Assembly (NCBI GenBank): GCA_023053545.1
Contig: JAKZAN010000005.1
Location: 9,052,001 to 9,116,000 of the forward strand
Direction: 5' to 3'
Length of the DNA: 64,000 nt
Source: Lepidurus packardi
Taxonomy: Eukaryota; Arthropoda; Branchiopoda; Notostraca; Triopsidae
Below, one piece after another: positions 14,770-17,525 of this stretch; position 1 is the stretch's first letter, and each line of letters begins with the position of its first letter. The notes below the pieces were generated by a model, which was given only the letters and a program-made list of their open reading frames with translations, was not told the DNA's origin and searched no databases. Position numbers and translations under genes: made by a program.

Positions 14770-17525
14770 ATGAGAGAAGGTTTCCATAAAGTTGATTTGA
14801 ACAAAACAGAATGGGAAGTGCCCGAACGGTATCAAATGCTCTCCCCAGTGGGTTCAGGCGCGTACGGCCAAGTCTGGTACGTTCTTTAGCCTTCTTTCTA
14901 GGGAATTATTGCACAATAAGATCCTTCCATGTGACCCAAATCCCATGCGGGTTTACTCTATATGCCGTATATGGCGCTAATGTCGGTCTTTCTGTTTTTA
15001 GTTCTGCTGTAGATTCCCTTACAACGACGAAAGTGGCCATAAAAAAGCTGGCTAGACCGTTTCAATCTGCCATCCATGCGAAAAGAACTTACCGCGAACT
15101 TCGTATGCTTAAACACATGAATCATGAAAACGTTATTGGTCTTTTGGACGGTTTTACTCCGAGTGATTCCCTAGAAAACTTTCAAGATGTGTAAGATCAT
15201 CCCCGAAAGGGCCTACTTTTCGCTTAATTGACCTAAAATGTGTTATTTTAGGTATATGGTAACTCATCTGATGGGAGCTGACTTGAATAATATCATCAAA
15301 ACTCAAAAGCTATCCGACGATCACGTTCAGTTTCTGGTTTATCAGATACTAAGAGGTCTTAAGTACATTCATTCAGCTGGAATTATTCACCGAGTATGTT
15401 TTTATCCTCTTTTTTTTCATTCTTCAACTAAGCTAGTTGAAATATTGACCTATTTCAAATACTTTGTAGGATTTGAAACCTTCAAACATAGCTGTCAATG
15501 AAGATTGTGAACTAAAAATCTTGGATTTCGGCTTAGCTCGGCCAACCGAAACGGAAATGACTGGTTATGTGGCAACCAGATGGTACCGAGCCCCCGAAAT
15601 TATGCTAAACTGGATGAGATATAGTCAGACAGGTATCTGAAAATATAAATAAAATAAAGAAACAAAAAGTCAGCCCTTTAATTAATTTTGTAAATTCTAG
15701 TGGATATTTGGTCTGTCGGTTGCATTATGGCCGAATTGATCACCTCCAGGACTTTATTCCCCGGCACGGATCGTATCCTTTTACCATCTACGTGTTTTAA
15801 AATTATGAATTATTATTGATTATTAATGCTTGGGGGAGGTAAGTGCTTGTCCATAGCACGCAAAAGCCAGAAAATGGGGAAGTTTTTTTATGCATTTTGG
15901 TAGTAATTAGCACGTGTGTGTGTTTGTGTGTGTCCAATCCAAAACCCTCTAGTTCTCCTTCACTGTCTGTCACCTTGCCCTTGCCTGCCGCCTATCGACT
16001 TCTTTTAGACATCCAACAATTGAACCTCATCATGGAACTGTTGGGAAAGCCCTCAGAAGAGTTCATGGCCAAAATCTCCAGCGAATCGGTGAGAGAAAAA
16101 CGTTCCATAACAACGTTGCATTTTTTGCGGTGTTTTGAAATCTCGTTTGGATCAATTCTAGAAGAGTTAAAGAGTGGGTTGGAGCTTATTATTAGTTTGC
16201 GTGCTATGTTTTGGGGGGTGCTTTGGTTTAACGTTTGCGCATGTGCAGTGAGCTTAAGAGAATTTTTATTTTATTTTTTAATATTGTGTAACGTATTTCA
16301 TAAGTTTCAAAAGTACTGGATATGCGAAAATTTTGCTTTGCTTTATTGGTGCCCTTTATCTTGCAAATACGATCCTTCACGCCCACGCTATTATCTTCAA
16401 CTCCATCCATCAGACATTGACCAACTTACGCGTATCATGGGACTGACCGGAACTCCTGGTTCTCAATTACTGGCCAAACTAGGAAGCGAAGAGGTAAAAA
16501 CAACAACAAAGGAACACATGATCTTGAGCTTTCTGTTTAGGATTTTGCTTTAAATTGATTGTTTCACCTGTTTCCGCCTCCCATTCTTCATTTCAAACTG
16601 TCCTGCCACGTTTTTCTTGCCGCCATCTTGTTTCCGCTTGTCTTTCACCCGTTCTTGTAGTGCATGTAATTTGTTGTAGTTTTTTGTTTAACGGTCATAG
16701 AACAAAACTGTGTGTCCTTAACTTCCCCATGCTTCTTCTGACCCACTCATCAGACATTGATCAATTGACTCGCATCCTGTGGCTTTGCGGCAAACCAGGC
16801 GAAGACTTCCTGGAAAAAATTACCAGCGAAGAGGTATCACATTAGGCTAATGTTTTGGCTCAAAGATCTACCAACATGATATTCTACTTAGAGCTAAAAA
16901 TTATTTTTGCTCCATTTTCCTGATCTTCGTTAATGACTAATGAGGCTTTCGTTTCCTTGTTAGGCCCGGAATTACATTCGCTCCCTACCGCCGATGAAGA
17001 AGAAGGATTTTAAAAGCGTATTTAAAGGCTCTAATCCTTTAGGTAAAGAAAAAAACTGTTTTCACAAGATTCAACATTCCAGAACTGTTCAGCTTTTTTT
17101 GTTAATCTCTTGTATGCTTTTAGTAATATGAATCTTTCATTGAACTGAGAGAAGCTTGTGTTGATAGACGAGTTATTTTCTTGTTTTCTTTGTGTATTAG
17201 CTATTGATTTGCTGGAAAGGATGTTGGAATTGGATGCCGAAAAGAGAATTAATGCTGAAGAGGCTTTGGCTCATCCGTACTTGGCGCAATATGCAGATCC
17301 ATCGGATGAACCGGTTTCTCCGGCCTATGACCAAAGTTTCGAAGATATGGATGTCACGGTCGAGGAATGGAAAGGTAATTATGAAAAAAAATATAAAGTG
17401 GAATTTCTTTATTAATTTGTTGCTTTGGGGGGGGTTTTTGCTCTGTAGAATTGGTGTACAAAGAGTTGGTGAGTTTTACGCCGCCAACCACAAATAACTC
17501 GGATCAAGAAGTACCTAGCACTTGA
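14770..17525 (+). CDS. p38: p38 MAP kinase with three mutually exclusive exons
   Basis: Stress-activated Ser/Thr MAP kinase acting downstream of MKK3/6-type kinases. Exons: 14770-14876, 15002-15190, 15252-15393, 15470-15632, 15701-15772, one of 16009-16088 / 16414-16493 / 16754-16833, then 16964-17042, 17201-17374 and 17449-17525. With one cassette the frame is unbroken and gives 360 residues, the length of human p38alpha. Visible motifs are the P-loop GSGAYGQV (29-35), ATP lysine K50, the HRDLKPSN catalytic loop with D147, DFG at 165-167, the diagnostic TGY activation motif (T177, Y179) and the C-terminal acidic docking stretch [19 protein letters not shown]. Alternative residues are 225-251. 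The start is supported by alignment with known p38 N-termini ([13 protein letters not shown]). TGY and overall sequence exclude JNK and ERK. Confidence 0.96.
16009..16088 (+). CDS. p38: p38 alternative exon 6a
   Basis: An 80-nt exon entering in phase 1 (the preceding exon supplies C of a His codon) and leaving in phase 0. It encodes [13 protein letters not shown] and then [14 protein letters not shown]. The acceptor is TTTTAG/ACATCC and the donor is TCG/GTGAGA. Its ISSES ending resembles the ending of one of the two human p38alpha alternative exons. It replaces residues 225-251, in and after the alpha-G helix of the kinase C-lobe. Confidence 0.85.
16414..16493 (+). CDS. p38: p38 alternative exon 6b
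   Basis: An 80-nt exon with the same phases as 6a. It encodes [13 protein letters not shown] and then [14 protein letters not shown]. The acceptor is CATCAG/ACATTG and the donor is GAG/GTAAAA. It is the closest of the three to the usual p38 sequence (LTGTP). The acceptor and first 12 exon bases are nearly identical to those of exon 6c, which points to a tandem duplication. Confidence 0.88.
16754..16833 (+). CDS. p38: p38 alternative exon 6c
   Basis: An 80-nt exon with the same phases as 6a and 6b. It encodes [13 protein letters not shown] and then [14 protein letters not shown]. The acceptor is CATCAG/ACATTG and the donor is GAG/GTATCA. It shares HIDQLTRI at the start and SEE at the end with 6b but differs in the helix and loop between, where it is nearer to 6a (GKP). 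All three keep H-I-x-Q-L, the middle Ile and G-x-P, so none looks decayed. Confidence 0.85.

Follow-up and report, generated by a model that had tools for sequence, protein, structure and literature searches.

The p38 MAP kinase gene of Lepidurus packardi carries three tandem exons of equal length at a single site, and the locus raises the question of how exactly one of them might come to be used, and of how old the arrangement is. We analysed a window of 64,000 nucleotides (the whole stretch of DNA under study) on contig JAKZAN010000005.1 of the 108.6-Mb genome, in which the gene lies on the + strand. Spliced translation and splice borders placed five constitutive coding exons upstream of the switch (14770-14876, 15002-15190, 15252-15393, 15470-15632, and 15701-15772, all +) and three downstream of it (16964-17042, 17201-17374, and 17449-17525, all +), the common downstream acceptor ending at 16963. 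With one cassette spliced in, whether A, B, or C, the product has 360 residues and keeps the TGY activation loop. The spliced protein scored 216 bits against the Pfam Pkinase model, and all 60 PDB matches listed (the best 60 of 2703) were MAPK14/p38, with a best E value of 2e-180; the NCBIfam models matching it were solely bacterial and archaeal kinase models, far under their cut-offs. Its closest proteins among the best 120 of 7682 include Daphnia sequences. The kinase domain, the TGY loop, and the nearest solved kinases thus all identify a p38 MAP kinase of the MAPK14 type, which supports the assignment in the earlier note of three p38 cassettes at the CSBP1/CSBP2 position. The gene is apparently single-copy: among the 129 genome matches listed, all those with at least 75% identity were the window's own exons, and a second p38 gene was rejected. 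Many kinase matches on small contigs, such as C73, C152, C169, and C240, read through in-frame TAA and TAG as ciliates do, so the assembly appears to include a companion organism resembling a ciliate. A match to the mir-137 microRNA precursor (10095-10166, - strand; 56.7 bits, exactly the Rfam gathering score) lies on the opposite strand, ∼4.6 kb away from the start codon of p38.

Cassettes A (16009-16088), B (16414-16493), and C (16754-16833), all on the + strand, are each 80 nt long, are flanked by AG and GT, and share the same phase, so that codon 225 is in every case composed of C from the upstream exon and AC from the cassette. As judged by eye, the pattern HI.QL..I..L.G.P fits all three, and exchanging one for another replaces p38 residues 225-251. 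Identity is 47/80 nucleotides and 13/27 residues between A and B, 53/80 and 15/27 between A and C, and 51/80 and 17/27 between B and C. The three exons are thus neighbouring and homologous, agree in length and phase, and have their own splice sites, as in a cluster of mutually exclusive homologous exons, and the corrected gene model confirmed what had been described from the letters, namely three 80-nt exons with intact splice sites, a common phase, and a shared pattern.

The reading frame admits exactly one of them. Skipping the cassettes, or joining AB, AC, BC, or ABC, leads to a stop after 240-261 residues, and because these early stops lie 203-380 nt upstream of the last exon junction, the skip and multiple-cassette products are predicted targets of nonsense-mediated decay (NMD). 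The earlier claim that the frame tolerates neither none nor two cassettes therefore holds, and it extends to the triple product. We also scanned the window in six frames (127,840 positions of 27 codons) with a cassette profile built from the segments of other species. The three cassettes scored 77.6, 73.8, and 68.5 and the next best position in the window scored −12.7; given this gap of more than 80 bits, the cassettes are far beyond chance, and a fourth or decayed copy in the 64-kb window was ruled out. The DNA of exon B had one match in the whole genome in a search sensitive to near-identical DNA only.

To place the cassettes among those of other species, we collected 309 homologous proteins (the best 120 of 7682, all 74 of a second search, of which 69 were new, and the best 120 of 191). 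A clean exon segment was recovered from 284 of the 309 (A in 70, B in 124, C in 84, and ambiguous in 6) and 25 were without a segment; the B count is inflated, as the query of the third search was of the CSBP1 type and 105 of that search's 120 proteins were B. The first search by itself (the best 120 of 7682) gave 70 A, 4 B, 32 C, 4 ambiguous, and 10 with no clean segment. Segments of types A and C occur repeatedly among both crustaceans and insects, and many of the listed arthropod proteins of these two types bear the isoform labels X1, X2, or X3. The B-like type turned up among crustaceans as well as in the horseshoe crab Tachypleus and the centipede Strigamia, but no named insect among the matches listed carried it. 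In Neodiprion pinetum, A is found in isoform X2 of p38b and C in isoform X3 (P0027 and P0081), and Homalodisca vitripennis has both A and C under two protein names (P0036 and P0109). All three types, A, B-like, and C, occur in decapods (P0048, P0079, and P0114), although P0079, like P0118 and P0120, fell in the ambiguous class of the segment count. In one Daphnia galeata protein (P0001) and four butterfly models (P0049, P0052, P0056, and P0062), A and then C are fused in a single protein, and an isopod model (Armadillidium, P0095) fuses A and then a B-like segment; such gene models are likely annotation errors, yet they keep the same tandem order.

Evidence for alternation came from a relative, in which two proteins (P0004 and P0009) are identical over 268/268 residues before the exon and 109/109 after it, one carrying A and the other B. 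Both are uninterrupted frames of 404 codons, and their contigs, no longer than 1.7 and 1.8 kb, are presumably cDNA because the gene has many introns. The pair is presumably the nearest approach, in a relative, to transcript proof that A and B alternate; a counterpart carrying C was not found for it. Among the listed homologues, we saw no other species with all three cassettes in one demonstrated gene.

The recurrence of A, C, and B-like segments across other arthropods argues that the three-way switch is old and not a local invention, contrary to the earlier suggestion that this arthropod had expanded it. A tree of 44 hand-picked segments of 27 residues, whose groupings are hints because it has only 27 columns, placed the window's A with arthropod A (0.93) and its C with the C type (0.88), whereas B stood beside the B of relatives with no printed support (0.7 or more). 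CSBP2 joined A (0.87), and the B-like segments did not form one clade, those of Tachypleus going with C (0.97) and those of decapods lying near CSBP1 (0.73). This topology would fit, without proving, an old A/B pair to which C was added later in the arthropod line. It had also been proposed, from their shared acceptor and start, that B and C arose by tandem duplication, but this likeness is not supported as a sign of their origin. Duplication at some time is likely, but a recent B-C event is unsupported: B is no closer to C (51/80 nucleotides) than A is (53/80), and B-like and C-type segments occur separately in other arthropods.

What could enforce the choice of one cassette is suggested by the splice site from which all three must be reached, an element absent from the earlier note. 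The common donor of the switch (15773-15781, +; GTATCCTTT) is an exact match to the minor-class consensus for U12-type donors. Placed precisely at the exon boundary, it matches U12 at 9/9 positions and U1 at 3/9, which is poor, and is the sole 9/9 match among the 3703 GT dinucleotides on the + strand of the window; the motif itself is not rare, as RTATCCTTT was found once on both strands of the window against 1.67 expected by chance. The donors of cassettes A (GTGAGAGAA), B, and C (GTATCACAT) match the U12 consensus at 2, 3, and 6 of 9 positions and the U1 consensus at 6, 6, and 5 of 9, that of C being weak for both classes; for comparison, the ordinary donor at 15394 within this gene matches U12 at 7/9. 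The cluster thus has a U12-type donor on one side and cassette donors that look U2-type, the donor arrangement of a U12/U2-incompatibility cluster.

The organism very probably has working minor splicing, since both the RNA genes and a textbook intron of this class are present. On large contigs, genes for U12, U6atac, U11, and U4atac each gave a single match exceeding the Rfam cut-off. An NLK-like gene, so named by eye, served as a positive control: at L025:570 and about L025:3550 it has the same donor GTATCCTTT and, 16 nt ahead of the acceptor, a perfect TTCCTTAACT.

The evidence at the cassette acceptors is mixed. U12 branch-site scores were 3 for A (P 0.69), 13 for B (P 0.049), and 6 for C (P 0.43), compared with 23 for the NLK control and 3-12 for the gene's seven ordinary acceptors, so that B, with a moderate branch-site-like ATCTTCAACT upstream, stands barely above the ordinary ones. 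The score of C rises to 19 (P 0.004) if 33 nt upstream is allowed, through a branch-site-like GTCCTTAAC (16714-16722, +) that is unusually far from the acceptor. At none of the acceptors of A, B, and C did we find an unambiguous U12 branch site where one would normally lie. The acceptor of A is pyrimidine-rich and looks U2-type, and the intron from the common donor to A may be a hybrid, in which case control would be incomplete or leaky for A. A hybrid intron with a U12 donor and a U2 acceptor was reportedly found in JNK2 by Chang et al. in 2007, and because such an intron is known, A may be able to use this route; if it does, acceptor class might itself steer cassette choice. As a separate observation on the window as a whole, near matches to the U12 branch-site consensus TTCCTTRAC (at most one mismatch, both strands) numbered 62 against 43.7 expected, and 0/100 shuffles reached as many.

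Taking these observations together, we lean toward a U12-in/U2-out gate behind an old three-way exclusive switch in p38. The minor spliceosome would join the U12-type donor at 15773 to one cassette acceptor, and the major spliceosome would connect the U2-type donor of that cassette with the one U2-type acceptor downstream. Joining cassette to cassette would be disfavoured, as it would pair a U2 donor with a minor-class acceptor, and direct skipping would be disfavoured, as it would pair the U12 donor with a U2 acceptor; products that leak through would be cleared by NMD. The order U12 donor, {U12 acceptor, exon, U2 donor} ×3, U2 acceptor would thus yield exactly one cassette, whatever the copy number. 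This outcome follows only if the cassette acceptors are minor-class, and we infer both that behaviour and the U12/U2 incompatibility itself. Which cassette is taken would probably be set by acceptor strength, trans-factors, and possibly base-pairing between introns. Spliceosome incompatibility has been described as limited to clusters of exactly two exons (PMC6071210), and a human survey is reported to have found U2/U12 acceptor incompatibility in five clusters (0.79%) (PMC5740500). The polarity logic carries no limit to two cassettes. If the gate is real, the gene would show incompatibility working for any number of cassettes and would offer a simple general rule, by which tandem exon copies in a central stress kinase would be mutually exclusive from birth, in any number.

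Intron base-pairing could, in principle, do more than select. In a docking-selector model such as that of Dscam exon 6, exclusivity would come mainly from competition between paired intron elements, and two perfect complements (13 and 11 nt) are candidates for the competing elements to which the earlier note had pointed. A docking-like element before A (15852-15884, +) contains 15852-15864, to which a selector-like element between A and B (16196-16208, +) is a perfect 13-nt complement, and 15874-15884, to which a selector-like element before C (16720-16730, +) is a perfect 11-nt complement. The first pairing would loop out A and favour B, the second would loop out A and B and favour C, and with neither pairing A would be used. 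In 20,000 dinucleotide shuffles, run after the pairs had been seen and on complements chosen after looking, the 13-nt complement between the pre-A and A-B introns had a P of 0.002 (−19.5 kcal/mol) and the 11-nt complement between the pre-A and B-C introns a P of 0.0154 (−16.5 kcal/mol); both together occurred in 0/20,000, and a complement of at least 13 nt in any intron pair in 0.0073 of the 20,000. A smaller run of 300 shuffles gave 0.0067 (13 nt) and 0.03 (11 nt), and in the other four of the six intron pairings, the longest complements were 10, 8, 8, and 6 nt (P 0.10 to 1.0). However, each of the two selectors would pair with its own docking segment, the two segments lying side by side, and no one site is shared; the pairing near C, which overlaps GTCCTTAAC, covers the best branch-site candidate of C and would repress C. 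Further, whole-intron duplex energies were ordinary for both pairings (P 0.40 and 0.31), whereas a pairing outside the docking model, between the A-B and C-7 introns, reached P 0.017 by duplex energy. We therefore consider base-pairing unlikely as the main source of exclusivity, the U12-type donor being the more direct reason; as a selector layered on the gate, these candidate pairings are plausible.

About equally improbable, in our judgement, is that no special gate exists and that ordinary splicing from weak competing sites is followed by removal of wrong products by NMD, as the 80-nt length, not being a multiple of three, would permit. The early stops of all five non-single products tested agree with such an explanation, as do the mixed U12 signals at the acceptors, but it leaves unexplained why a perfect U12 donor with a poor U1 match should stand at the head of the cluster. 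Steric exclusion was rejected, the inter-cassette introns being 325 and 260 nt long compared with 61 nt for the gene's shortest intron. That any of the cassettes is a degenerating or disused remnant, as the weak donor of C might suggest, is very improbable, because A, B, and C all keep their frame, length, splice dinucleotides, and the residues common to other species, A and B alternate in the contig proteins of a relative, and A and C are named isoforms in Neodiprion pinetum.

The U12-in/U2-out gate, which we thus prefer, would have a further consequence if p38 acted on its own switch. In human cell lines, p38 is reported to stabilise U6atac and boost minor splicing (PMC3728624), and according to a review, p38MAPK itself harbours a minor intron (PMC8199999). 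By analogy with these two reports, we regard a feedback loop in this crustacean as speculative, possible but rather doubtful: through the three-exon gate, p38 would influence its own amount and perhaps, because the three acceptors differ in U12-likeness, isoform choice under stress. Were the gate real, control over p38 isoforms would be in the hands of a minor spliceosome that p38 reportedly boosts in human cells.

What the switch would change in the protein can be judged from the position of the exchanged piece. In the PDB match alignment, the 27 residues align to the αG region of p38α; residues 225-251 correspond to the αG helix together with the beginning of the MAPK insert. An AlphaFold model of a relative carrying cassette B (P0020; 22 sequences) had a mean pLDDT of 54 and was too poor for use. 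For the related kinase ERK2, the αG helix is described as contacting MEK1, with the αG helix of the MAP2K docking on the MAPK insert, and MKK6 is described as abutting p38α similarly, at limited resolution (PMC12871702). Because the exchanged piece lies in the region where MAP2K enzymes touch MAPKs, the likeliest effect of the swap, by analogy, would be a change in activator (MAP2K) or partner preference; changed substrate or partner choice among the cassette forms is likewise plausible. The switch could thus retune p38 activation or partners, and water fleas and shrimps would allow it to be studied in vivo.

Finally, we compared the locus with known systems. In open-licence literature, titles and the starts of abstracts yielded no paper on an arthropod p38 cluster or on a triple cluster behind a U12-type donor; the text of a Daphnia immunity paper (PMC2685406) contains neither “p38” nor “MAPK”, and MAPK14 is not named in the main text of PMC9741552 or PMC5740500. 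In arthropod databases, p38 proteins of the A, B-like, and C types are represented by sequences and labels. The Dscam-type clusters, for which the docking-selector model is described (PMC6071210), resemble the locus in that intron complements could loop out cassettes, but here there are two post hoc pairings only and no shared docking site. Interlocking of U12 and U2 sites is described for the JNK genes, at exons 6a/6b (7a/7b) of MAPK8/MAPK9 (PMC8329584). JNK is, however, the mirror image of the present case, since the competition there is within a pair of U2-type 3′ sites and a pair of U12-type 5′ sites, around two cassettes, whereas the three p38 cassettes of the window have donors that are not U12-type and follow a common U12-type donor upstream (15773). 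The JNK-like gene of the same genome (L023), also named by eye from sequence, has no intron at the site of the vertebrate alternative exons. A close parallel is vertebrate MAPK14, whose exons 9a/9b (CSBP1/CSBP2) are likewise homologous, arranged in tandem, and included singly (PMC1431701, PMC5224494), at the same position of the same protein; the likeness extends to the tree, with cassette A near CSBP2 (0.87) and the decapod B-like segments near CSBP1 (0.73), but vertebrates have two such exons and the window gene three. Overall, mutually exclusive p38 exons are already known in vertebrates, and as isoforms in arthropod databases; the triple cluster behind a U12-type donor, with no counterpart in the open-licence titles and abstract starts, would be the new element.
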